Assembly (NCBI GenBank): GCA_016186945.1
Contig: JACPKR010000003.1
Span: forward strand, 25,113 to 89,112
Direction: 5' to 3'
DNA from: Deltaproteobacteria bacterium
GTDB lineage: Bacteria; Bdellovibrionota_B; Oligoflexia; Oligoflexales; Bog-1112
Length of the DNA: 64,000 nucleotides
This document shows positions 1,278-42,973 of this stretch, in pieces. The notes below the pieces were generated by a model. It was not told where the DNA came from and did no database searches. It worked only from the letters and a program-made list of their open reading frames with translations. A program made the translations under genes and the position numbers. Numbering within the stretch: position 1 is the first letter of the stretch; the number at the start of each line of letters is the position of its first letter.

Positions 1278-1390
1278 AAGCCCCTTTTCAAAAAACTTCA
1301 ATATCTAAAGTTTTTTGGGGGGAGGCGTGGAGGGGAACTTTTTTTCAAAAAAGGTCCTCTCCACAAATTCTTTTTCTCAAATACTATAGC
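1278..1390. repeat. Family B repeat, copy B1 (left-truncated)
   Basis: This matches the right two thirds of the B copies at 4278 and 6299: the stretch after the CCCCTTTTC stem, the GGAGGGGAAC...GGTCCTCTCC stem, then the end ATACTATAG. The left CTATAG end is missing. It lies in the gap between actA and actB, so it is probably transcribed within that operon. Confidence 0.85.
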
Positions 1391-4277: not shown

Positions 4278-4475
4278 ACTATAGTGTTTAAGGAAATCAA
4301 TTTGGGGAAAAACTTTTTGGAAAAAGTTCTTTCCCCAAGCCCCTTTTCAAAAACTTCAATAGTTAAAGTTTTTTGGGGGGAGGTGTGGAGGGGAACTTTG
4401 TCATCCCGCGGCTTGACCGCGGGATCCATTTTTCAAAAAAGGTCCTCTCCACAAATTCTTTTTCCCAATTACTAT
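4278..4475. repeat. Family B repeat, copy B2, carrying a family C palindrome
   Basis: The copy is complete, from ACTATAGTGTTTAAGG (4278) to CCCAATTACTAT (4475). It has three successive T/A-rich stems and encodes an open frame (INLGKNFLEKVLSPSPFSKT...) also found at 6306. It directly follows the uvrB stop, and its right end supplies the bases just before the uvrC ATG. A GC-rich palindrome is inserted at 4400-4428. Confidence 0.88.
4400..4428. repeat. Family C GC-rich palindrome nested in B2
   Basis: TCATCCCGCGG-CTTGA-CCGCGGGAT is a near-perfect inverted repeat. The same palindrome occurs twice, in opposite orientations, in B6 at 39345-39427. Similar palindromes are common in several alphaproteobacterial genomes (family knowledge). 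Here it interrupts a stem of the B element. Confidence 0.8.
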
Positions 4476-6306
4476 GAAAAAACTTCGTGAAAAACTAAAA
4501 CGAGTCCCCTCCTCCCCAGGCAGCTACCTTATGAAAGATAAGGAGGGAGACATCATCTACGTTGGGAAAGCAAAGAATCTGAAGCACCGCCTGAGTTCCT
4601 ATTTCGCCCGCACTTCGATCGAAGAGCCGAAGACACACGCCCTGGTGCAGGAGATCACGGACTTCGATATCATCCTCGTGAACAACGAAGTCGAAGCCCT
4701 GCTCCTCGAGCGGAGCCTTATCAAGGAGCACAAACCCCGCTTCAACGTCATCCTGCGCGATGATAAGGAATACCCTTACCTGCGTGTCGACTTGCAGAAC
4801 CAATGGCCCCGCATCAAGAAAGTACGTCGGCGTAAAAACGATGGGGCCACCTACCTCGGCCCTTTTAGCCACGTCAGTCAATTGAACGCGATCCTTGACC
4901 TCACCTTCCGTATTTTCCCCCTTATCCGCTGTTCCGAACACTACTTTGCAAACACAACGCGGCCTTGCAACTATTACCATATGAAACGCTGCCTCGGCCC
5001 ATGCACGCTTCCTGTAAAGGAGGACTTGTACAAGGGGATGGTGCGGGACGCGATCGCCTTCCTTCAGGGGAAGAACAAGGGGGTCATGAAAGCTCTCAAA
5101 GAAAAGCTGCTAGCTGCCTCCGAAAGTGAGGAATACGAATTGGCAGGGCGTTATCGCGACCAGCTCCATGCCCTGAGAACGATCACTCAGGAGCAAAACG
5201 TCGTCATTAAAAGTATCAAAGACTGCGACGCCTTTGGGATCGCCCACGACCAGGACACCTTGTCCCTTCATGTGTTGAAAATTCGCGAGGGAAAAATTAC
5301 CGGCAAGGATCGCTTCATCGTTCCCATGCCCCTTCCCCATCTGGCAGAAGCTGTAAGTGATTTCCTGCTTCAATACTACGAAGCCCGGTTTATCCCGCAA
5401 GAAATCATCCTGCCTTATGACTTCGCAGATAGGGAAATTCTTGAACGCGCCCTGACCGAATGGTCCGAAAACAGGAAAGTTTCGCTGACTGTCCCCTCGA
5501 AGGGGCAGAAAATGCGCTTGGTGGAACTTTCCCACAAGAACGCTCTCTACCACCTTGAGGAGTCGCTTAATAAAAGAGCAAAGGAGAAAATTCGTCTGCA
5601 AGCCTTGCAAGACAAATTTCAACTGGACGAATTTCCCCTCCGCATCGACTGCATCGACATTTCGAATATACAGGGGACAGCCATCGTTGCCTCGCAGGTC
5701 TGTTTTCTGGGCGGTCGACCGGCGAAGGACAAATACCGACTCTTCAATATCGAAGACTCACGAACAAGCCCCGACGACTACTGGGCCATAGGGGAAGTGA
5801 CCAAGCGATATTTCGCTAGGCTCCTGCATGAAAAGGAATGCCCCCAACTTCTCGTTATAGACGGAGGGAAAGGCCAGATGGCAGCCGCATTGGCTACGCT
5901 CAATCATTTTCCCGATCTCAAAATTCCCATCGTAGGACTGGCAAAAAATCGAATACGCTACTCAGATGATGAAGAAGTAAGGACGGAGGAACGTGTTTTC
6001 TTCCCCGGGCAGCGAGACCCCTACATCCTGAAAGAAGGGTCTCCGGTCTACCAAATCCTTACACAAATCCGTGACGAAGCCCACCGCTTCGCCATCACCC
6101 ACCACCGCAAACGACGAAAAGGTGTCCTCCAGAAATCCGTGCTGGACGAAATTCCCGGCATCGGCCCGTCGCTGAGAAAAAAATTGCTGGCTTACGCCGG
6201 AGATATAGAACAACTTAGAAATATGTCGTGGGAAGACCTTAGCAAAATCCCCGGCCTGCGAAAAAGCGTTGCGGAAGCCCTTTTCAAAAAATTATCTTCC
6301 TATTAG
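4474..6306 (+). CDS. uvrC: UvrC, excinuclease ABC subunit C
   Basis: At 610 residues the protein has the full UvrC length and domain order. The GIY-YIG endonuclease (about 12-95) has the signature SSPGSYLMKDKEGDIIYVGKA and makes the 3' incision. A cysteine-containing segment follows (CNYYHMKRCLGPC). A UVR motif near 205-240 pairs with UvrB. The RNase H-like endonuclease (RIDCIDISNIQGT near 388, VIDGGKGQ near 463) makes the 5' incision. A helix-hairpin-helix pair sits at the C-terminus (IPGIGPSLRKKLL). The ATG at 4474 overlaps the end of repeat B2 and has no convincing Shine-Dalgarno, so translation may depend on coupling or on unusual leader structure. The stop TAG is itself inside the left end of the next repeat (B3). 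Confidence 0.97.
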   Translation: MKKLREKLKRVPSSPGSYLMKDKEGDIIYVGKAKNLKHRLSSYFARTSIEEPKTHALVQEITDFDIILVNNEVEALLLERSLIKEHKPRFNVILRDDKEYPYLRVDLQNQWPRIKKVRRRKNDGATYLGPFSHVSQLNAILDLTFRIFPLIRCSEHYFANTTRPCNYYHMKRCLGPCTLPVKEDLYKGMVRDAIAFLQGKNKGVMKALKEKLLAASESEEYELAGRYRDQLHALRTITQEQNVVIKSIKDCDAFGIAHDQDTLSLHVLKIREGKITGKDRFIVPMPLPHLAEAVSDFLLQYYEARFIPQEIILPYDFADREILERALTEWSENRKVSLTVPSKGQKMRLVELSHKNALYHLEESLNKRAKEKIRLQALQDKFQLDEFPLRIDCIDISNIQGTAIVASQVCFLGGRPAKDKYRLFNIEDSRTSPDDYWAIGEVTKRYFARLLHEKECPQLLVIDGGKGQMAAALATLNHFPDLKIPIVGLAKNRIRYSDDEEVRTEERVFFPGQRDPYILKEGSPVYQILTQIRDEAHRFAITHHRKRRKGVLQKSVLDEIPGIGPSLRKKLLAYAGDIEQLRNMSWEDLSKIPGLRKSVAEALFKKLSSY

Positions 6307-6470
6307 TGTTCAAGATAATCAATTTGGGGACAAACTTTTTGAAAAAAGTTATTTCCCCAACCCCCTTTTCAAAAACTTCAGTATTTAAAGTTTTTTGGGG
6401 GGAGGCGTGGAGGGGAACTTTTTTTCAAAAAAGGTCCTCTCCACAAATTCTTTTTCCCAAATACTATAGT
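6299..6470. repeat. Family B repeat, copy B3 (complete)
   Basis: It runs from CTATTAGTGTTCAAG, which contains the uvrC stop codon, to CCCAAATACTATAGT. Stems present are AACTTTTT/AAAAAAGTT, CCCCTTTTC...GTTTTTTGGGG and GGAGGGGAAC...GGTCCTCTCC. It separates the convergent genes uvrC and 6474-6911. Confidence 0.88.
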
Positions 6471-11889: not shown

Positions 11890-12035
11890 GTAATGCGTAA
11901 GCCACTTGGGGCAAGGAGGTGGTTTGGAGGAAACTGCGCAGCTGGTTCCTCCAAGAAATCACTTGGGGGAGCGACGGTTCCCTCGCCCCCCCAAACCCCC
12001 CTCTCCCTATTTGCCCCAAGTGGCTTACGCATTAC
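11890..12035 (+). mobile_element. Family A MITE-like element, copy A3 (complete, with target duplication)
   Basis: This 146 bp copy has perfect 25-base terminal inverted repeats (11890-11914 and 12011-12035; outer bases GTAATGCGTAAGCCACTTGG). The flanking direct repeat GATGGCAA occurs at 11882-11889 and 12036-12043. It has no transposase, so it is non-autonomous. It sits upstream of both the ATPase (minus) and the lipoprotein gene (plus). Confidence 0.92.
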
Positions 12036-12202: not shown

Positions 12203-13966
12203 GTGAGAACAAAATTTTATTTGTTTTTACTTTGTATTATCACGGACATAGTCATCTTGTCCTGTAAAACCAGAACAGCCAGAAAACCATCGGCCGCCGC
12301 AAAAGAAGCCGCGTTGGCGGAAAAAGGAGCTTGTCCCGAACCTGACGTGGGACTCTTCGGCCCACGAGAACCTATGAGCCTTGCTGGGCTACAACTCGCC
12401 TCTGGTGATGTCAAGGTTAGCTCAACCGATTATAAACCTAACGCATTTACCACCCGCATCACTGTCGATCCCTTCGCTCTTGGCCGTAAAAACAATGAAG
12501 GATTGGGCCTAAGCTTGGTCGAGGGAGGCGCTGGCATTGAAGTTCCTCCCGTCTTTGTCATGTGGAAAGCCTGTCAGAAAACAGGGCAACAGTGTTCCAA
12601 TAACGGCAATTGGGCAAAATCTTACGACTTCACGATAAACGACCTCAGCAAGCTTCCCACAGGTGTTCTGACTGTCAGCATCAGAGCATGTGTGGAAGAT
12701 CTTGCGTTGGTGGTTCCCCAAGAACAAAGTGCGCTAACCAATTCGTGCACATCCGAAGATCCTTGCTACTGCGGAAAAGAAGTCAAAGTTCCTTACCTGC
12801 AAAAAGACTTCGCTTCTTCCGATGCAGACCTGAACAAACTTGCACAAGATATCCAAAATGCCAAAGCAGTCATTTTCCAGAGAGCTAACGCCTATATCCA
12901 AAGTGCCAAATCTTACCTGCGAAGTTGCTCTCAAGATGCCGGGACGACCCCGTATGAGTATGCGAGAAATATAGCGTCTTATACTTCTGACGAACTTGCA
13001 TATCTTACGGATAGCCTCGGCTACGCGATGATCGATTTCACTAATTCTCTTATAAAGGAGGCTAGCACAGGTGGAGAACTTGGACTTGCTGAAGGAACGC
13101 CCTCTGCCTGCTTCAAAGGACTTCCTCCTCCGACGCCGGTCGCGGAACGAGGGGACTATTCCACCCCGAGCGGTGAAGCGGAACCGTTTTCTCCCGGAGA
13201 AACACCTGGAGAAACAGAAGTAACAGACATAACGAAACCCATCCCCGAGCCGCGAGAACCCAGCGGGGAAGAGAAAGAGCTCGTAACAGGTCAAACACCC
13301 GCACCAGTCGCTTCAAGCACTCAGCAGGCCCTCCAGCAAGTCTCCCAAGTCCTCTTCGGCTTCGGCGCCACAGCGATCGTCCTTGGAGCTGTGGTTTTGG
13401 TCACCTCTGTGGTAGTCGCAGGGACGGGAGTGGCGTTAGATGTAGCAGTAGCGGTTGAGGACATTGCGGCTGCGAGGTCGGCGGCGGTGGAGGCGGATGC
13501 GAGGGCGAGATCGGCGCCGATGGTGGCAGCACCGGCGGGTACGTCAGGAGGTAGGTCGGTGGAGGCGGATGCGAGGGCGAGATCGGCGCCGATGGTGGCA
13601 GCACCGGCGGGTACGTCAGGAGGTAGGTCGGTGGACAGGATAAGGGCGGAGCCAGCGGGGACGAAGGTGGTGGCAGGTGGAACGGCGTGGGAGCCGAGAA
13701 AGGCTGCACTGGAATCAAGCATGATTCTGGAAAAAGCAGGAATAAAGGGTGCGTTAGTGTCGCTTGCAATGATATTGAGCGGTGTGGCGGCGGTAGCTGT
13801 TGGTAGTATTGGTTATTCTGGTTTTGCTGCTGGTCTTGCAGAGGGGACGGTTTGTGGGAATTTTGCCAGTGTTGCTGTGCAGAACGAAACGTCGCTCAAG
13901 CAGGCTGTGGACGTTTTGGTCGATATCGAGAATCAGTTTGACGCGCGTTTAGCGGTTCTTCGTTAA
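12203..13966 (+). CDS. Large predicted lipoprotein of unknown function
   Basis: GTG 12203 is preceded by AAGAGGT and gives a lipoprotein signal ending VILSC (Cys 21), which is better than the longer frame from 12158. The mature part (about 567 residues) has an N-terminal beta-rich region with paired cysteines (CQKTGQQC, CTSEDPCYCG). A proline/glutamate-rich linker follows near 300-365. Two hydrophobic glycine/alanine-rich segments (about 395-425 and 525-560) could be membrane-embedded. Between them a 24-residue unit (VEADARARSAPM...) is repeated twice in tandem from an exact 72 bp duplication. It follows the A3/A3b repeats and has a terminator-like hairpin downstream. No family is recognised. 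Confidence 0.68.
   Translation: MRTKFYLFLLCIITDIVILSCKTRTARKPSAAAKEAALAEKGACPEPDVGLFGPREPMSLAGLQLASGDVKVSSTDYKPNAFTTRITVDPFALGRKNNEGLGLSLVEGGAGIEVPPVFVMWKACQKTGQQCSNNGNWAKSYDFTINDLSKLPTGVLTVSIRACVEDLALVVPQEQSALTNSCTSEDPCYCGKEVKVPYLQKDFASSDADLNKLAQDIQNAKAVIFQRANAYIQSAKSYLRSCSQDAGTTPYEYARNIASYTSDELAYLTDSLGYAMIDFTNSLIKEASTGGELGLAEGTPSACFKGLPPPTPVAERGDYSTPSGEAEPFSPGETPGETEVTDITKPIPEPREPSGEEKELVTGQTPAPVASSTQQALQQVSQVLFGFGATAIVLGAVVLVTSVVVAGTGVALDVAVAVEDIAAARSAAVEADARARSAPMVAAPAGTSGGRSVEADARARSAPMVAAPAGTSGGRSVDRIRAEPAGTKVVAGGTAWEPRKAALESSMILEKAGIKGALVSLAMILSGVAAVAVGSIGYSGFAAGLAEGTVCGNFASVAVQNETSLKQAVDVLVDIENQFDARLAVLR
13487..13630 (+). repeat. Two 72 bp tandem repeats inside the lipoprotein gene
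   Basis: The unit beginning GTGGAGGCGGATGCGAGG at 13487 recurs at 13559 with no visible change. It encodes two copies of a 24-residue Ala/Arg/Gly-rich segment. The exact identity points to a recent slip duplication and likely copy-number variation. Confidence 0.9.
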
Positions 13967-16875: not shown

Positions 16876-17020
16876 GTCATGAGTAAGCCGCTTGGGGCAA
16901 GGAGGTGGTTTGGAGGAAACTGCGCAGCTGGTTCCTCCATGAATTCCTTGGGGAAGCGACGGTTCCCTCGCCCCCCCAAACCCCCCTCTCCCTTTTTTCC
17001 ACAAGCAGCTTACAGGTTAC
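16876..17020 (+). mobile_element. Family A element, copy A4 (target duplication present)
   Basis: It begins GTCATGAGTAAGCCGCTTGG and ends GCAGCTTACAGGTTAC. The ends are diverged from the consensus. The 8-base direct repeat TTCAAATG occurs at 16868-16875 and 17021-17028. It lies between the divergent genes argS and comM and touches the argS ribosome site, so argS mRNA starting upstream would carry the CCACCTCCTT strand. Confidence 0.9.
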
Positions 17021-22612: not shown

Positions 22613-23587
22613 GTGGAAATTCGAAAGCCTCTTTGGCCTAACCAGCATTGTATTCTAATCAGCCACAATACTGAGACCTTTTATCTCATAAGAAAAATTG
22701 CTCTTACGACTCGATGGGAACTCGTGAAAATGACTCCTTTTGTTGAGGAGGCCATCACCGAGGTTTACGAGAATCGCGCCTTCTTGGTGATTGTTGATGA
22801 TGAAGAGGCCTATCCTGCCCCCTTAACCATTCGACGCTTGTCACGAGAACCAAAACTCCTTGCCACGCCCATCCTTTGCACTCTTAATCCCGCTCACCGC
22901 GGCGAGCAGAATATCCTCTCCGAGCTTGGCAACGTCGATGTCGTTCTCAAACCGGTCACACCCACGATTTTCCTTCCCCGACTCACCCATCTCATCAAAT
23001 TCTGGCAAGCGAGTCCCTACTACAATCTCAGGGTCGCTGCTAACAGTCTGGGACGCGACCCTTCGCGAGACGATTTCGACCGCTTGCTCACGCTGCTTCC
23101 CATTCACGAAACCCATCCTTTGCTCGTCTCTATCACTGCCTTACTACTGGCTAGCAAGCAATTCATAAGCCAGGCTGAAAAGCTTCTGCTGAGAGCGATC
23201 GAGAAAGATCCTTCTCGACCTTTGCCCATTATAAGCTTGGCACATATATATCTTCACCACGCAATGCCAGCAGAGGCGCTGAAATTGCTCAATGCGCTCT
23301 CCCGCAAATACGACGACACACTCTTTGCTTTTTGCGACCTGATTCAGGCGAATCTTATGGAAGGCGACATCTCAAATATATTGAAAGTCTTAATGCATGG
23401 ACTCAAGCGTGAGTTTAGCATCCCCGTCCTCCCCTCACTGTTCGCAAGCTACGCAATCGCCGGTCGGCAAGATGAAACCCTGAAAAAGTATTTAAAACCC
23501 TACTGGGATCTGTATAAAAAAATGAAAGCGAGTTGGCTTCCTTGGGACAAGCCCGAAGGTCCCGGACTCGTCCAAACCAAAACATGA
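22613..23587 (+). CDS. Receiver-like domain plus TPR-like repeats, unknown function
   Basis: The 324-residue protein starts at GTG 22613 with AAGGG six bases upstream. Residues 10-125 resemble a pseudo-receiver fold (HCILISHNTETF; FLVIVDDEE at the usual phospho-acceptor strand; VVLKPVTP matching the conserved Lys-Pro). Residues about 150-310 form helical pairs of TPR type (AEKLLLRAIEKDPSRPLPIISLAHIYLHHAMPAEALKLL). The same order, receiver then TPR, occurs in some deltaproteobacterial regulatory proteins. Its stop overlaps the tamB start (ATGA), so it is translated in one operon with the outer-membrane assembly genes. A regulatory or scaffold role there is inferred from position only. Confidence 0.7.
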   Translation: MEIRKPLWPNQHCILISHNTETFYLIRKIALTTRWELVKMTPFVEEAITEVYENRAFLVIVDDEEAYPAPLTIRRLSREPKLLATPILCTLNPAHRGEQNILSELGNVDVVLKPVTPTIFLPRLTHLIKFWQASPYYNLRVAANSLGRDPSRDDFDRLLTLLPIHETHPLLVSITALLLASKQFISQAEKLLLRAIEKDPSRPLPIISLAHIYLHHAMPAEALKLLNALSRKYDDTLFAFCDLIQANLMEGDISNILKVLMHGLKREFSIPVLPSLFASYAIAGRQDETLKKYLKPYWDLYKKMKASWLPWDKPEGPGLVQTKT

Positions 23588-26500
23588 TTTCTGTTTTCAA
23601 GAACATTTTTATCATTCTCATCTCCCTCTTTCTCATTTTAGTGGGCCTCGATTTTGTAATTGACAATCCTTACACTCAAAAATTCTTCAGGGCCTATATT
23701 TCTGATATCGTGGAAAAGGAGTCTAACTTAGCACTCGACTTTGAGGGTTTGGAAATTGGTTTAGTCCCGCTCCAACTCGATTTTTTTGGGCTTACCCTAT
23801 CCGTGAAAACAGAACAACCTGCGCCTCCCCTTGCGACAGCTACACAATTGAAGGTGACCGTCTCGCTGATTTCTTTGTTCTTCGCACGTCCAAACTTCCT
23901 TGACATTGACATTGACGGGCTAAATCTGAAATGGCCTCCAGGGGCACCCCTTTCTCCTTTGCGAGGACCTGACGAAACTTCAGAACTGGCCCCGCTCATT
24001 CCGATCGGACAGGTTCATATTTCCAACTCACAGTTCCTTTTCGATTTTGCTCCCGGAGAAACAAGCGTCTCCAGCGTGAATCTGTCGGGAGTTAACATAG
24101 TGGGGTCTTTCGAGAGATGGGATGATTTTCAAGCATCACTCTCCGCCATGTCCGTCAATTTAACAGTCGATGATAAGGAAATTCTCTCCGGGACCAGGCT
24201 TCTCATCTCTCAACTTACATTTACCGGACATGAATTTGATCTGCGACACCTCCTTGTGAAGGACAATTCCTTCTCGCTTCAAGGAGGGATCAACGGCTTC
24301 CTTGGCTTCGAACACGACAAGCTGAGAAGCGTCAAGCTCGACGCTAACCTTGACGCTGACGCTGATCTTAGGATTCTCGACCATTGGTTCGACATGAAAA
24401 AAACTTCTGGTGGCGCCAAGGCGAAGGTGCATTTTTATGCGCACGTTCCTGTGGATTATCCCGGCGACACAAGTTTCGTAGCGGAAGGTGAAGCAGAGGC
24501 TATTGACGCATATTTGGCAGGCAACCGTATCTACAACGCGCGCTCTTTTTTCAAATTGGATAACGAGAAAGTAGCGTTTGATAATCTAGAGTTAAAGGTC
24601 GGTGACAAAAATCACGCGAATTTAGTGGGAGAGATTGTCTTTAGCAAGCAGGTCGATTTCGAATTTCACGGCAAAGCATGGGACCTTCCCCTAACCCAGA
24701 TTGTGTCATCCTTCGATGAAGACCTGACCGTTATTGACTTTATCGCGAATACGGACACGGTTCATTTCAAGGGGACTGGCTCCCCCTTTTCCATGGAGCT
24801 TTGGGCAGACGGTGAGTTAACTGATCTGCATTTCCCCGAACTTCCGATCAAACCTGACATCTATAGACGCCGGCCTTCATGTCGGGTTCAAGCCCATCTT
24901 TTTTTCACGGAGTACCTGCTCGACTTCAAGGACACGGAAGGCGTCTGTTACATTCCTCCCGAGAAACTTCACCCGCAAGCCAAGCCTGATCGAATGCGTG
25001 CTCCTGAGGGAGCATTGTTTGCCAGCTCGGTCAGTGTGCGCGATATCATCCATTTTCGCGATGGTCCGAATATGAAGATTTTCGGGGTCAATGCCGACCT
25101 TGGTTTGAGCCAGAGCTTTTTTCAGGTCGATCTTAACGGAGTCGGTGATGTCGAGACGCATATTGTAGAAGAGAACAAAGAAGTTCGCGTCATTAATTCG
25201 TTCGATGTTCATTCACTTGCATTTCAAAAGGTCTTTCTTGGCGATGCAAAGGGAACTTTGACCGTCGTCAAGGACCATATGTTCTGGGACGATGTTTCCA
25301 TAGAGAAGGGGGACCGAACATTCTATGGGGAACATGGTCGCTATCTTTGGAAGGAGGATAGGCTCCAATTCTCGGTCGAGGGTGCCCATCTTAGTGCGGC
25401 AGACATCGAACTGTTTTCCGCCATTGCTCGTGAGGAGGGCATTCAACCGTATTCCTTTGCCATCGACTCATTCCGTGGGACCTTCGACATACCGGTTAAG
25501 GATCCCTGGCATTCTCGAAACAGCCTAGAAATGAAACTGAGCGACGTCTTCTTCAAAGAGAATTTGTTGGCTACAGGTATCAATGCAACGGTCCTCCATA
25601 ACGGGAATGAATTTCGCATCCCCAAGTGGACTGTGAATTTTGGCTCTCTCTCCCTGACCGGTCAGGCCATTCTAAAGAAAGCCCGATTCGACTCCTTTTT
25701 GGCCGGAGATGACTTCCTTAACCTAACGTTTACCACAGCTAAAGTTGATGACCCCCGTGCCACAAACGGTTTGACTCAACTGGAGAAGATTCAGCCAATA
25801 AAGACATACCTTGACCCGCTGAAAATTGCCGGAATGGTTGACGTGACAGGGGAGCTAAGAGGCGAGATTGCCTCACTGAGCGGCCACTGGGAGGGAAGAT
25901 TCTCAAGTTTAAAAATCAATCGCTTTCCCGTTTACCCTGTCAACTTTCAGGGTTTTCTGAACACGTCCCACCTGCAAGTCTATCTTAGCCAAAGCGGGAA
26001 CAATCTGGTGGGTCGAATGGACGTTGATATTTCCACGCCTGGTCAACCCTTTTCCTGGTACTTCAAACTGAAGCAATTCGACATGCGACCTTTCACCAAG
26101 GACTTCTTTTACCAGGACGCGCGCAATTTTGCATACCTGACAGCGAGCTGGGCTTTGGAGGGAAAGCTAGATCAATGGTGGCAAGCCAACGGGAAATTGA
26201 TGATCGACGATCTGCGCATGAATATAGTCCCCCATGGTAGGGACCCTACCGTCAACCCTCTGGTGATTAGGAACACTGCCCCTGCTGTTTTGCTTTCATC
26301 ATCGCGCGGGTGGGTGTTTGAAAATCCGGACGGTCTTGAAATCGAAGGAGACGGCGTAACAGCGAATTTGCAACTCTCCGAGATGAATCGTCCTCCGGAA
26401 TCCCTCGATATGCGTATCCATTCCGACCTCGACCTCCGTTTGTTGACACAGTTCTTTCCTGGCATACAATCAGCGACAGGCACCGTCAACGCCCGCACAA

Positions 26501-27768
26501 GGATCAGTGGAAGCGTCATAAACCCTAACGTTGCAAGTAGCATTCGCAATGTTCCAGCGAAGGAAACAACGGGCACCCTACCCCTTTCACTCAACATCCC
26601 CACAATAAGCCCAGCAATCCAGGATATCGAAATTGATGCCAACTACTTAAATGGCATTCTTACAGTTAAAAAAGTGAGTGGGAAAAAAGGAAAGGGAATG
26701 TTCAAGATTGAGGGCCTTGTCAATTTGTCCTCGGAGCAGCAAAAACCAATGACGCTTGTGAATATAAAACTGGACAAACTCTCCCTCAATTATCCGCTTC
26801 CCTACCTGCGAATGATCCAGACTGTTCTTGACGGAGAGCTGACGGTCTCTGGTCTTGGAAAGCCCTTTGATGTTGCGGGAAACATCAACATAGTGTCGGC
26901 GCAGACAGAGCGGACCCTTGACACCAAAGCGGAAAACATCCGAGAGATCCCTATTGGCGATATGGTTCGGGGATTTCGGGAAGACGAAACGTCTTTTTTC
27001 AACTACAATATAGCTGTTGAGGGGACGCGAAGCATCCGCGTTCAGAACCCAGCAATGAATTTGATCATGTCGTCAGACATTGTCCTTAAGGGTACTAACG
27101 AGAAACCGATCATCGAAGGAATCTTTAAGGTAGATGAGGGAAAATTTAGATATCAGAGAGACTTCGTCATTTCCCGCGCCGAGCTTGTATTTGACAATCC
27201 CTTGCAAAACGACCCCAAATTGGACATCCTGGCAAGATCTGAATTCAATCCTTACACCATCACGGTTTATATTTCTGGCGAAGGAACCAAACCTCTGATC
27301 GACATCCATGTCGACCCACCGACAAAGGAAGACGGTAGCATCATCACCCGCCTGGATGCCATCATCCTCCTGTCGCAGGGGAAGCTTCCCGCAGCAGAGA
27401 GTCGTACCCAAGACACTCGCAACGTCGGCGTCATGACAGCCTTCAATTTGTATGCCAGCCAACTGCCCTTTCACAAGTTCAACGAACTGACAGGCCAACG
27501 GTACATTTCGCCCTATGTAAATTACACAACAGACGAGCAGGGGAATCTTGTGCCTCAGCTCAACGTCCCCATTCACATTACAAATGTCATAGAAGCGGTG
27601 GTTCGGCAGATTCCCAACACTACCCTTTTGACTGTGGAATTTCCAATTCACCACAATATTTCAGTATCTGGCAATGCTTCGTCTACACAGAGACGAACTG
27701 ACGTTATACAAGAGGAAAGTCAGTTTCAAAGTGGGATAGACATGCGATTCGCCTTCCCCTTCAAGTAG
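23584..27768 (+). CDS. tamB: TamB/AsmA-like translocation and assembly module protein
   Basis: The 1394-residue protein has one N-terminal transmembrane helix (FKNIFIILISLFLILVGLDFVI) and then a very long periplasmic beta-rich region. Near the end lies the DUF490/TamB domain: IAVEGTRSIRVQNPAMNLIMSSDIVLKG, GIFKVDEGKFRYQRDFVI, FNPYTITVYISGEGTKP and the LSQGK motif. TamB-type proteins bridge inner and outer membrane as lipid-conducting grooves and partner with an Omp85 protein, and such a gene follows immediately. I choose ATG 23584, which overlaps the preceding stop; the longer frame runs back into the upstream gene. A final pair of beta strands ending RFAFPFK is consistent with docking to the Omp85 partner. 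Confidence 0.88.
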   Translation: MISVFKNIFIILISLFLILVGLDFVIDNPYTQKFFRAYISDIVEKESNLALDFEGLEIGLVPLQLDFFGLTLSVKTEQPAPPLATATQLKVTVSLISLFFARPNFLDIDIDGLNLKWPPGAPLSPLRGPDETSELAPLIPIGQVHISNSQFLFDFAPGETSVSSVNLSGVNIVGSFERWDDFQASLSAMSVNLTVDDKEILSGTRLLISQLTFTGHEFDLRHLLVKDNSFSLQGGINGFLGFEHDKLRSVKLDANLDADADLRILDHWFDMKKTSGGAKAKVHFYAHVPVDYPGDTSFVAEGEAEAIDAYLAGNRIYNARSFFKLDNEKVAFDNLELKVGDKNHANLVGEIVFSKQVDFEFHGKAWDLPLTQIVSSFDEDLTVIDFIANTDTVHFKGTGSPFSMELWADGELTDLHFPELPIKPDIYRRRPSCRVQAHLFFTEYLLDFKDTEGVCYIPPEKLHPQAKPDRMRAPEGALFASSVSVRDIIHFRDGPNMKIFGVNADLGLSQSFFQVDLNGVGDVETHIVEENKEVRVINSFDVHSLAFQKVFLGDAKGTLTVVKDHMFWDDVSIEKGDRTFYGEHGRYLWKEDRLQFSVEGAHLSAADIELFSAIAREEGIQPYSFAIDSFRGTFDIPVKDPWHSRNSLEMKLSDVFFKENLLATGINATVLHNGNEFRIPKWTVNFGSLSLTGQAILKKARFDSFLAGDDFLNLTFTTAKVDDPRATNGLTQLEKIQPIKTYLDPLKIAGMVDVTGELRGEIASLSGHWEGRFSSLKINRFPVYPVNFQGFLNTSHLQVYLSQSGNNLVGRMDVDISTPGQPFSWYFKLKQFDMRPFTKDFFYQDARNFAYLTASWALEGKLDQWWQANGKLMIDDLRMNIVPHGRDPTVNPLVIRNTAPAVLLSSSRGWVFENPDGLEIEGDGVTANLQLSEMNRPPESLDMRIHSDLDLRLLTQFFPGIQSATGTVNARTRISGSVINPNVASSIRNVPAKETTGTLPLSLNIPTISPAIQDIEIDANYLNGILTVKKVSGKKGKGMFKIEGLVNLSSEQQKPMTLVNIKLDKLSLNYPLPYLRMIQTVLDGELTVSGLGKPFDVAGNINIVSAQTERTLDTKAENIREIPIGDMVRGFREDETSFFNYNIAVEGTRSIRVQNPAMNLIMSSDIVLKGTNEKPIIEGIFKVDEGKFRYQRDFVISRAELVFDNPLQNDPKLDILARSEFNPYTITVYISGEGTKPLIDIHVDPPTKEDGSIITRLDAIILLSQGKLPAAESRTQDTRNVGVMTAFNLYASQLPFHKFNELTGQRYISPYVNYTTDEQGNLVPQLNVPIHITNVIEAVVRQIPNTTLLTVEFPIHHNISVSGNASSTQRRTDVIQEESQFQSGIDMRFAFPFK

Positions 27769-27774
27769 GGCTTG

Positions 27775-30700
27775 ATGAAACATATTGTATCTATAGTGTT
27801 CAAGACAATCAATTTGGGGACAAACTTTTTGAAAAAAGTTATTTCCCCAAACCCCTTTTCAAAAACTTCAATATCTAAAGTTTTTTGGGTGCTCATGTTC
27901 GCAAACAACGCGATCGGAAGCGATCTCGTCAAATCGTTCCCCCTGGATGATTATAAGAACAAGAGCATTCTGGAACAGCGTTACAAATCTGTCGCGACCC
28001 TTTCTGATCTGAGCCGACTATTCAAAGATATCGAAAAATCGAGCAACATTTCCAAACTCGAACTGCACCGTGAAGGTGATCAATTCCACTGGGTTCACAC
28101 ACTCGCACATCCTATCCGCGACATAAAAATCAAAACAAGCATCCGATTTAGAGAATTCACTCAAATCATCCGTAACAAATATGTGGGACGGATGAATTCG
28201 CTCCACCTCCAAGGCGTGCTCGTCTCGGAAATTTTGGAAAATTTTGAACGCATCGGATACCCCCATGCGCAGGCGAACTTATCCATCCTGGATGAAGATG
28301 GCTTTGCGGAATATGTTGTCGAAGTATGGCCAGGACTATCCTGCATCATTGCGGATGTTCAAGCTCCCGAGTCGCCCCATGCTGAAGTCTCCCTGGAGAT
28401 CGGTCCCGGCGACCGTTGCGACATTAATCAAATCAAGGCTGCTGTCGAAAACTATGAACGCAAACTTATAGAGGAAGGATTTCAACAGGCTTCCCTTGAA
28501 CTTGAGCCCCTCCAGTATTCCCGAAACAGAACCGTTCTCAACGTTCATATCCGAGGAGTCATCGGAAAAAAAATCGATTACCTGTTCATCGACGAGTCGA
28601 AAATCTTTTTCGGCAGCGCTATAGAAGAAGATATGATCCAATATTTTCGAGAAAATTTTTCCGATCCCAGGCAGGTGCGGGTCACATTGATAGACTATTT
28701 CAAACGCAAAGGCTACGACTTTGTAAGTGTCAAAGGCCCGTACCTTCAAAAGGAAAGTGATGACTTTCTAACCTATATATTTCTTGTAAACCCAGGCATA
28801 GCGTTCAAAGTTTCCGACATGCAGATAGAAGGTAACAGCCACCTCTCGACGGAAGACATCAAGGCCGCCATTGATTTTCAGAGCTTCTGGGAAAGCCTAC
28901 CGATCATCGGTAAGGAAAAGTCCTATGAGGACATTTCCAAAGACATCCAACATTTCTACCATTCGAAAGGCTTCTGGAAAGCGACTGTCCAGCATTCACA
29001 CACATCCTTTGACAGAGTTTCCAAATCCGCAAGAATGAATATTCTGATAGACGAAGGACTGCCCCACATGTTCCGTTCCCTCACGATTACGGGCAATCAA
29101 AATATTGATGAGGGTGATATCAGAAAACTGTTCCCTGCCCACGAGGGCGACCCACTCTTACAAAATCAATTGATCGACTTCGAATACTCTGTCCAGTCAA
29201 AATATTTCGAGCAAGGTTTCATTGAAAGTAAAGTTGCGACAAAGGTCGATACGTTCATTCAAAAAGAGACCGTCGCGACAGATGTAACCCTGCTCATAAC
29301 GGAAGGCCCCCTCGTCCGCATCGGCACGATCACTATCAAGGGATTGGTTGACACGAGGGAACCCGTCGTGCGAAGGGAGCTTCTCTTCAGTTCAGGTGAC
29401 ACTTTCAACCAAGAATTGATTAACCAAAGCAGAACAGCTTTAGTAAACCTAGGCATATTTTCTTCGGTTGCGATCGAGCGTTCCGAAATCAAACAGCACG
29501 ATTCAACTCATGAAATCGACATCGTCATTCGTGTCAAAGAAGGAGACCCTGGCCGTGTCAAATTCGGCCCCGGCTTCAATCTGACCCGAGGGCTTCAATA
29601 CGTGGGGGAAATCTCCTATAACAATCTTGGAGGAACAGGACGAAGGGTTAACGTGCGCGCAGCCGTCAGCGAAGAAAGGCAGCAGCAGTCCATCAGCGAT
29701 CTTACGGATAAAGAAGGCAAGACACTCTTGGGACGTAAAGTCGGGCTTGGTTTTACAGAACCATACCTTCTCAATCTTCCCGTGCATGGTAATATCTCAC
29801 TCTACCACCAGGCTATCGCTGATGACGTCTGGAAGTTGAGCAACTCAATTGAATTGTCCCTTTCCCATCATTTTTCACCTGATATTTTTATCGGTTCAGT
29901 CACACCGTTTTATCGTTTCAGCAGATTGCGGGATGAAGGGACAAGGGAGCAAAGGGACAGCTTGATTACCACCGGCAGTTCCGACATTGGAGCGTTGGGG
30001 GTTCGCTACAGACTGGACCGTCGAGACAGCTTGCTGTGGCCTACAAAAGGTTTCCTTTTCAACATCGAGGCCAGTTGGGCCCGTTACAACTTTTTCGGTC
30101 AGTACCGCTACTTCAAATGGCATCTCAGCTCAAGCCAGTATTTTGAACTCATGAATGACCTTGTCTTTGCATTCGGCATTGGCATTACCTCTTACGAAAG
30201 GGTACTGAGAAGGGGAGCCAATGCGGAAACAGTCGACGTCTTGCCTGCAAACAATCGTTTGCTCGCAGGAGGCAGTAACGAAGTCAGGGGCTTCGACCAC
30301 CAACTGGGACCTTATGTCCTAACCAAACGGACCGACCCTAGCAGCCAGACAGTCACGTATGATCGGGAGCCGCCCTTAGGTGGCTCAAAACGTCTCATTT
30401 TGAAATCGGAGTTACGACGTCAAGTCGTGCCGAACCTACTCGCGTTGTCCACCTTTCTCGACATTGGCAACAGCTTTTTCTCTCTTGATGAGGAAGATAA
30501 ATTTAATAAGCGTTTCAGCGAATCTAAAACTGCACAGACGGAACGAAGCATGGAAGACAATTTCAGCTACGACTTCTCCGAGCTTGTCACGCACCCCGAA
30601 TACATACTGCTCAAGAATTATCAGTCATACGGCCTCGCGCTTAACCTTCTCACCCCACTAGGTTCTTTCAATGCAGCCGTAGCACTTCCGCTGCGAGAAC

Positions 30701-30810
30701 CTTCTAGCGATAGATGTCGTGGCGAAGGTATCTGCTTTCAGAGAGCGAAAGATAAAGAGCTGTGGTTTCAAAAATTCAAAGTTGAGTTGAACATAGGAGC
30801 AGAGTTTTAG
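27775..30810 (+). CDS. Omp85 family outer-membrane assembly protein (TamA/BamA-like) with repeat inserted in its N-terminus
   Basis: This is a protein of about 1011 residues. Several POTRA-like domains cover about 60-600 (MQIEGNSHLSTEDIKAAI, LTITGNQNIDEGDIRKLF, ITIKGLVDTREPVVRRELL). A C-terminal 16-stranded barrel follows, with YNNLGGTGRR and the VRGF motif (AGGSNEVRGFDHQLG), ending in Phe. Omp85 proteins insert beta-barrels or export substrates, and tamB upstream suggests a TamA-like partner. The N-terminal 40 residues are unusual: after MKHIVSI the frame reads a truncated family-B element (27791-27889), then resumes with VLMFANNAIGS. Without the insert the two parts would form an ordinary short signal peptide. 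The stop TAG lies in the target duplication of element A8. Confidence 0.88.
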   Translation: MKHIVSIVFKTINLGTNFLKKVISPNPFSKTSISKVFWVLMFANNAIGSDLVKSFPLDDYKNKSILEQRYKSVATLSDLSRLFKDIEKSSNISKLELHREGDQFHWVHTLAHPIRDIKIKTSIRFREFTQIIRNKYVGRMNSLHLQGVLVSEILENFERIGYPHAQANLSILDEDGFAEYVVEVWPGLSCIIADVQAPESPHAEVSLEIGPGDRCDINQIKAAVENYERKLIEEGFQQASLELEPLQYSRNRTVLNVHIRGVIGKKIDYLFIDESKIFFGSAIEEDMIQYFRENFSDPRQVRVTLIDYFKRKGYDFVSVKGPYLQKESDDFLTYIFLVNPGIAFKVSDMQIEGNSHLSTEDIKAAIDFQSFWESLPIIGKEKSYEDISKDIQHFYHSKGFWKATVQHSHTSFDRVSKSARMNILIDEGLPHMFRSLTITGNQNIDEGDIRKLFPAHEGDPLLQNQLIDFEYSVQSKYFEQGFIESKVATKVDTFIQKETVATDVTLLITEGPLVRIGTITIKGLVDTREPVVRRELLFSSGDTFNQELINQSRTALVNLGIFSSVAIERSEIKQHDSTHEIDIVIRVKEGDPGRVKFGPGFNLTRGLQYVGEISYNNLGGTGRRVNVRAAVSEERQQQSISDLTDKEGKTLLGRKVGLGFTEPYLLNLPVHGNISLYHQAIADDVWKLSNSIELSLSHHFSPDIFIGSVTPFYRFSRLRDEGTREQRDSLITTGSSDIGALGVRYRLDRRDSLLWPTKGFLFNIEASWARYNFFGQYRYFKWHLSSSQYFELMNDLVFAFGIGITSYERVLRRGANAETVDVLPANNRLLAGGSNEVRGFDHQLGPYVLTKRTDPSSQTVTYDREPPLGGSKRLILKSELRRQVVPNLLALSTFLDIGNSFFSLDEEDKFNKRFSESKTAQTERSMEDNFSYDFSELVTHPEYILLKNYQSYGLALNLLTPLGSFNAAVALPLREPSSDRCRGEGICFQRAKDKELWFQKFKVELNIGAEF
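27791..27889. repeat. Family B repeat, copy B5, in frame inside the Omp85 gene
   Basis: It runs from CTATAGTGTTCAAGACAATC through the two T/A-rich stems to AAAGTTTTTTGGG. The right third of the element is absent. The frame stays open across it and encodes VFKTINLGTNFLKKVISPNP, near-identical to the frames of B2 and B3. Confidence 0.9.
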
Positions 30811-30812
30811 AC

Positions 30813-30956
30813 GTAATGCGTAAGCCACCTGGGGCAAATAGGGAGGGGGGGGTTTGGGGGGGCGAGGGAAGCGTCGCCTCCCCCGGATTTCTTGGAGGAA
30901 CCAGCTGCGCAGTTTCCTCCAAACCACCTCCTTGCCCCAAATGCCTTACGGGTTAC
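30813..30956 (-). mobile_element. Family A element, copy A8 (target duplication present)
   Basis: The copy is 144 bp, from GTAATGCGTAAGCCACCTGG to TGCCTTACGGGTTAC. The direct repeat TTTTAGAC occurs at 30805-30812 and 30957-30964. The left copy contains the Omp85 stop codon, and the right copy adjoins the stop of the convergent gene. It acts as an intergenic spacer between two converging genes. Confidence 0.93.
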
Positions 30957-39280: not shown

Positions 39281-39496
39281 CTATAGTATTTGAGAAAAAG
39301 AATTTGTGGAGAGGACCTTTTTTGAAAAAAAGTTCCCCTCCGCTGTCATCCCGCGGCTTGACCGCGGGATCCAACGGCAGCCTTCCTCGAATAAGTTGGG
39401 TCCCGCGGTCAAGCCGCGGGATGACAGACCCGTAAAAATTCTTCCCGAAAACTCGTAAAAGTTTTTCCCAAAATTGATTGTCTTGAATACTATAGT
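39281..39496. repeat. Family B repeat, copy B6, with two family C palindromes
   Basis: This full-length copy is in reverse orientation, from CTATAGTATTTGAGAAAAAG to TTGTCTTGAATACTATAGT. Its centre is replaced by two GC palindromes facing each other. The gspN stop codon lies directly at its right edge. It fills most of the gene-free stretch 39200-39495. Confidence 0.88.
39345..39427. repeat. Pair of family C palindromes in inverted orientation
   Basis: GTCATCCCGCGGCTTGACC (39345 onward) and its reverse complement (39400-39427) flank a 27-base spacer. Each arm is itself palindromic. The pair could form one long stem or two local hairpins. Confidence 0.8.
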
Positions 39497-42830: not shown

Positions 42831-42973
42831 GTAATGCGTAAGCCACTTGGGGCAAGGAGGTGGTTTGGAGGAAACTGCGCAGCTGGTTCCTCCAAACAAT
42901 CCCGGGGGAGGCGACGCTTCACTCGCCCCCCCACCCCCCCCTCCCTATTTGCCCCAAGTGGCTTACGCATTAC
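42831..42973 (+). mobile_element. Family A element, copy A11 (complete, with target duplication)
   Basis: The element is 143 bp with perfect 25-base inverted ends (42831-42855 and the matching end at 42973). The direct repeat CGCAAATCA occurs at 42822-42830 and 42974-42982; the second copy contains the gspK stop codon. It splits the T2SS operon between gspK and gspL. Confidence 0.93.

Follow-up and report, generated by a model that had tools for sequence, protein, structure and literature searches.

A copy of a miniature repeat element lies in frame within the signal peptide of a TamA-like protein in an Oligoflexales genome

A copy of a short, high-copy repeat, referred to as element B hereafter, lies in frame within the signal peptide of a TamA-like Omp85 protein, and the reading frame of the gene is unbroken. 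Such a placement had been proposed by the first-pass annotation, and its coordinates, frame and repeat match were all confirmed. The locus lies in a 64,000-nt stretch of DNA (the window, to which positions refer unless another locus or contig is named), which is part of contig C54 of the source assembly, G000, a 2.66-Mb draft that is 91% complete. It is very likely that a non-autonomous, TA-targeting miniature element (MITE) was inserted in frame into tamA, that its right part was lost, and that the native ATG is used. The features are listed in Table 1.

Table 1. Positions of the tamA locus features, of element B copies in the window, and of element fusions elsewhere in G000
Feature	Position	Strand	Remarks
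tamB-like gene (TamB/DUF490 domain)	23533-27768	+	Pfam TamB, E 2.4e-17; start as listed for the ORF, the real one perhaps further in
tamA-like Omp85 gene	27775-30810	+	1,011 codons plus stop codon
Native start and n-region, MKHIVSI	27775-27795	+	AGGG upstream; 6 nt after the tamB stop
Element B copy (MITE) in tamA	27792-27889	+	98 nt, matching element positions 1-98 (full length 167 nt); right 69 nt absent
Hairpin 1 of the element, TTGGGGACAAACTTTTTGAAAAAAGTTATTTCCCCAA	27814-27850	+	
Possible in-element start, TTG-AAA-AAA (MKKVISP...)	27829-27831	+	GGGG upstream, within the hairpin
Hairpin 2 of the element	27861-27885	+	
Remaining native signal peptide, VLMFANNAIGS	27889-27921	+	aligned to G001
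Mature TamA from DLV, POTRA domains and Omp85 barrel	27922-30807	+	putative cleavage after AIGS, placed by alignment
Element B copy, left-truncated	1278-1388	+	q58-167
Element B copy, nearly full	4280-4475	+	q1-166; ~30-nt REP TCATCCCGCGGCTTGACCGCGGGATC in right arm
Element B copy, nearly full	6304-6468	+	q3-167
Element B remnant	39282-39494	-	left end 39457-39494, right end 39282-39341, other sequence between
AroA (EPSP synthase): right part of the element, internal, in frame	L101:2749-2854; G000 C59:43242 onward		
SBP5-like protein: full copy in signal peptide	L103:2984-3150; G000 C60:11983-12149	-	MPLYS-(55 aa)-IIFLFILAGSASA
DnaJ: C-terminal tail and stop from the element	L104:2401-2554; G000 C8	-	
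Two adjoining OMP genes fused	L098:4203-4343; G000 C18	-	886-codon frame; left-truncated element
GMP synthase guaA, read in frame from the element	L100:3079-3227; G000 C12:82579 onward		

The product of the gene carrying the insert has POTRA (E 1.5e-28) and Omp85 (E 7.8e-28) matches in Pfam, and the gene lies directly 3′ of the tamB-like gene, its ATG at 27775 being 6 nt past the tamB stop codon (TAG, 27766-27768). Omp85 matches were present in all of the 38 searched genomes. The second such match of G000, at C17, is BamA-like and merely 24% identical; thus, of the two genes, that of the window is TamA-like: it combines POTRA and Omp85 domains with an adjoining tamB, and it is distinct from BamA. 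No second TamA-like gene was found in G000. The gene had also been described as otherwise intact, and this holds: the frame stays open to the stop codon at 30808-30810, and the 972 codons past the insert are intact, with full POTRA and Omp85 domains and a conserved C-terminus.

When the window was compared with itself, 27794-27911 paired with 4282-4399 and 6304-6421. In blastn, the insert matched 6304-6399 with 95.8% identity over 96 nt (E 1e-40) and 4279-4377 with 90.9% identity over 99 nt (E 3e-35); these matches far exceed chance. The encoded N-terminus reads MKHIVSI-VFKTINLGTNFLKKVISPNPFSKTSISKVFW-VLMFANNAIGS-DLV. A comparison with relatives, which had been suggested as a check, is provided by the same-genus genome G001, in which tamB ends with ...FSFPFK and tamA starts 9 nt past the tamB stop. 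At the same place after tamB, the G001 TamA begins with MKSLILIAVVLCSSLLYA followed by DLV, that is, with an uninterrupted signal peptide of 18 residues without the repeat. If 31 residues are taken out of the window TamA, MKHIVSIVLMFANNAIGS followed by DLV is left, again with 18 residues and with DLV aligned to that of G001, so that an ordinary short signal peptide is recovered, as had been predicted. The gap was placed in the same stretch by a MAFFT alignment with the G001 TamA. The net gain over the 18-residue form is 31 residues (residues 8-38; 93 nt), or 32 residues (96 nt) if one target TA is retained; the repeat had therefore been rightly located, and only the extension is shorter than the 33 residues ascribed to it. 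A few native residues could have been lost as well, given that the length of signal peptides is variable; the decisive point is the frame. These sequence comparisons support the reading as an in-frame insertion.

Translation from a start that avoids the insert, which had been named as counter-evidence to this reading, yields no signal peptide. From GTG 27889 and ATG 27895, the best 9-residue Kyte-Doolittle (KD) hydropathies are 1.28 and 0.66, respectively, and neither start is followed by a hydrophobic stretch; TamA would then have no signal peptide and no export. The corresponding value is 3.68 for G001 and 2.99 for the window protein with the insert left out. As found, the core consists of two separate parts, IVSIVF and VFWVLMFA, with values of 2.14 and 1.90. 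The modified TamA would be exported via its extended signal peptide, but since the hydrophobic core is split and weaker, the insert may weaken this export, and it is mainly for this reason that we do not call the insertion harmless.

Full copies of element B are mostly 167 nt long, end in TATAG...CTATA, and have hairpins at 23-59 and 105-144. More than 100 copies exist in G000; in the surveyed stretches of this genome, 121 copies with a length of at least about 60 nt were counted. Among the 58 complete copies, the TATAG...CTATA ends are conserved, TA is nearly invariant at both ends with no longer duplication beyond it, and the flanking position is C at -1 in 34 copies and G at +1 in 29, which gives a C-TA-G site. 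The terminal inverted repeats, with ends TATAGT(G/A)TT..., are imperfect, and the whole element is 64% self-complementary over 171 columns. By its size, ends and copy number, element B is a MITE, with a putative target duplication and a putative parent transposon. The title of Tenzen and Ohtsubo (1991), as cited in PMC2170065, states a preference of IS630 for TA in CTAG, and the target preference of element B fits an IS630-like element. With duplication of TA, the gain from a full copy would be 165 nt, which corresponds to 55 codons. Of the 42 ungapped copies, 39 have an open frame +1, and the other five frames are closed in all 42; thus, a single orientation and phase gives in-frame fusions. 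The mean divergence of the copies from the consensus is 3.7%, and no copy was detected in seven same-family genomes (one 27-nt match in G003 was chance-like) or in plasmid records, a combination that looks like a young, lineage-specific expansion. A search limited to DDE_3 found no such transposase in the 91%-complete G000 assembly. Rfam gave nothing above chance in 27600-28100, where a sub-threshold SNORA35 match is attributable to chance, and the search for an empty site with the element nested in another repeat returned a sole flank match, inside the same locus (L136). In the literature, no MITE described for an Oligoflexales genome was found.

Several other features of the repeats were also observed. 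The ~30-nt REP occupies the same place of the right arm in the window copy 4280-4475 and in L092, L102, L122, L025 and L004, so the REP-bearing form of the element itself seems to have multiplied. About nine copies, including those in tamA (at 27889) and in the C27 gene, end near positions 98-111, at a T6G6 tract; breakage may be favoured there, or these copies may represent a shorter version of the element. Another repeat family of high copy number, GCAAGGAGGTGGTTTGGAGGAAACTGCGCAGCTGGTTCCTCC, occurs on both strands (11896-11957, 16882-16943, 42837-42898, 30889-30943 and others), with one copy just past tamA, and a perfect 72-nt tandem duplication is present at 13485-13628.

The proposed origin of the tamA insert is as follows. 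Element B is a MITE, a DNA element that is non-autonomous, targets TA and has an IS630-like target preference. A trans-acting transposase would have put one copy into a TA among the first tamA codons, in the sole orientation and phase in which the frame of the element is open. The right 69 nt would have been lost after the insertion, or, alternatively, the element would have been inserted already truncated; its ...SKVFW would thereby have come to adjoin the native VLMFANNAIGS. If translated from its native ATG, tamA would give a TamA precursor with about 31 extra signal-peptide residues, and, with cleavage after AIGS, the mature protein, for which TamA function is predicted, would stay unchanged. 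The site could accept the insert because signal peptidase removes the part containing the extension.

Another reading is that the element sits effectively in the tamB-tamA junction and that translation starts inside it, at TTG 27829 (giving MKKVISPNPFSKTSISKVFWVLMFANNAIGS), or just after it. This TTG is followed by AAA-AAA and has GGGG 9 nt upstream, and the resulting peptide, with an n-region charge of +4 and the core VFWVLMFAN (KD 1.90), is a plausible signal peptide; moreover, the native start is seemingly lost or out of frame in guaA, a membrane glycosyltransferase-like gene and the second OMP gene described below. However, the native ATG holds its position after the tamB stop and has AGGG upstream, while the TTG is in the loop of a stable hairpin in which its GGGG is paired, and the signal peptide is gone with the starts at 27889 and 27895. 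A start at TTG 27829 is therefore less likely than one at the native ATG, and a location of the element in the junction, though conceivable, is unlikely. The split and weaker hydrophobic core would also suit a recent, incipient pseudogene whose frame is still open and whose signal peptide is dead, but the intact downstream codons with their full domains and conserved C-terminus argue against this, as does the lack of another TamA-like gene in G000, the C17 Omp85 protein being BamA-like. We consider loss of tamA function in this manner quite unlikely.

In-frame insertion with use of the native ATG, which remains the preferred reading for tamA, can be set beside the other fusions in G000. About 20 of the 121 copies have a long frame through them, and fewer than 10 alter a recognisable protein; most copies sit at gene borders rather than in genes. 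In AroA, the insert follows PGSKSITNRALLIASLASG and precedes the next conserved segment; at this place there are 48 residues, as compared with 5 in the best-matching solved EPSP synthase, and the insert is absent from the AroA proteins of the relatives G005 (same family), G006 and G003. The SBP5-like protein has an ordinary signal peptide once the 165 nt of the element are left out. Element sequence is N-terminal in the TolC-like (C29), membrane glycosyltransferase-like (C27) and GMP synthase (C12) proteins, whose native starts are unclear; for guaA, a native start is not evident, and AGGAG lies 5 nt before a GTG of the element. The 886-codon frame at C18 was rejected as a single gene with an internal insertion, because the G001 locus consists of two adjacent, separate OMP genes (...VGFDLRYRF and a stop, then MKSLSFL...); at C18, the element replaces the end of the first gene and the start of the second. 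The frames through the element in kdsB-like, peptidase-like lipoprotein, TPR-type and Fic-like genes were dropped, a normal start being found after the element. There are two clean signal-peptide cases, TamA and SBP5. Since signal peptides make up little of the coding DNA, these two cases, although few and from a partial survey, hint that signal peptides tolerate insertion of the element.

It is improbable that element B acts as a portable N-terminal module, providing several genes with start codons and with n-regions of positive charge; if it did, tamA, the SBP5 protein, the TolC-like protein, the second OMP gene and cytosolic guaA would depend on a MITE for initiation or targeting. We regard it as very improbable that the frame of the repeat is a selected protein module donated to genes and not a chance-open MITE. 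The one open frame in nearly all ungapped copies would agree with such selection, as would the scarcity of stop-making changes (3 vs 13 expected), although the copies share ancestry and the stop count is not independent. However, the greatest variability is at codon position 2 (0.057 vs 0.028 and 0.025), fewer synonymous changes are observed (43) than the substitution spectrum predicts (64), and the copies lie mostly at gene borders. Coding selection on the repeat was rejected, since the codon-position rates give it no support. The frame is probably open through the youth of the element and a permissive sequence, and the element would be seen in proteins because insertions in other phases destroy genes. 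Finally, near-identical high-copy repeats are a classic cause of mis-joins and more than 100 copies exist here, but an assembly artefact within tamA is hardly credible, because the 98-nt copy has unique flanks, lies 7 codons from the start and runs in frame into the expected protein, both flanks agree with the tamB-tamA order of G001, and it would be rare for a wrong join to continue, in frame, with the remainder of this very signal peptide.

In-frame insertion of small repeats has precedents, and the analogy to the Rickettsia palindromic elements (RPEs), drawn in the first-pass annotation, is strengthened by the further in-frame insertions in G000, above all that inside AroA. According to the summaries in PMC10969869 and PMC2229807, RPEs (Ogata et al. 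2000/2002) are inserted in frame in conserved proteins. Element B is likewise small, high-copy and palindromic, has an open frame, and occurs in frame in conserved proteins, the remainder of which is kept; TamA, AroA, SBP5 and the DnaJ tail are the examples. Unlike RPEs, which are found in Rickettsiales and have a high share of copies inside genes, element B comes from a genome whose relatives are Oligoflexales, and its copies are mostly at gene borders. We do not file it as an RPE on account of this low in-gene share, the two being set apart by the descriptions of RPEs and not by sequences.

The Yersinia element YPAL/RU-2 (168 bp, with a 56-codon open frame) is nearly the same size as element B and also has an open frame and signal-peptide fusions, some fusions forming part of a signal peptide, as in YPO1552 (PMC2229807). 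However, its termini are given without TA in the table of PMC2229807, and the protein in question, YPO1552, is a putative new one; in tamA, by contrast, the existing signal peptide of a conserved gene was interrupted. The Coxiella elements QMITE1/2 (PMC5896051) resemble element B in their fusions at gene ends, in supplying stops and C-terminal tails, and in their occasional internal in-frame insertions; by their description, they differ in host, and signal peptides are absent from the text of PMC5896051. The Correia/NEMIS and RUP elements are TA-flanked MITEs, for which, in the case of RUP, IS630-type mobilisation was proposed (PMC2229807). They share the TA termini, the hairpins and a size of about 100-170 bp with element B, but, as described, RUP has stops in all frames and the 155-bp form of NEMIS has no open frame, while element B has one.

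By analogy, then, element B appears to act like the RPE, QMITE and YPAL fusions. Compared by description, it is a new family, and the kind of event is known from RPEs and other bacterial MITEs. It adds an unrelated lineage, whose nearest named relative is an Oligoflexales bacterium, in which a small mobile repeat of more than 100 copies enters conserved proteins. It also suggests a rule: a cleaved signal peptide may be a tolerant landing place, because the mature protein need not contain the residues that were added.
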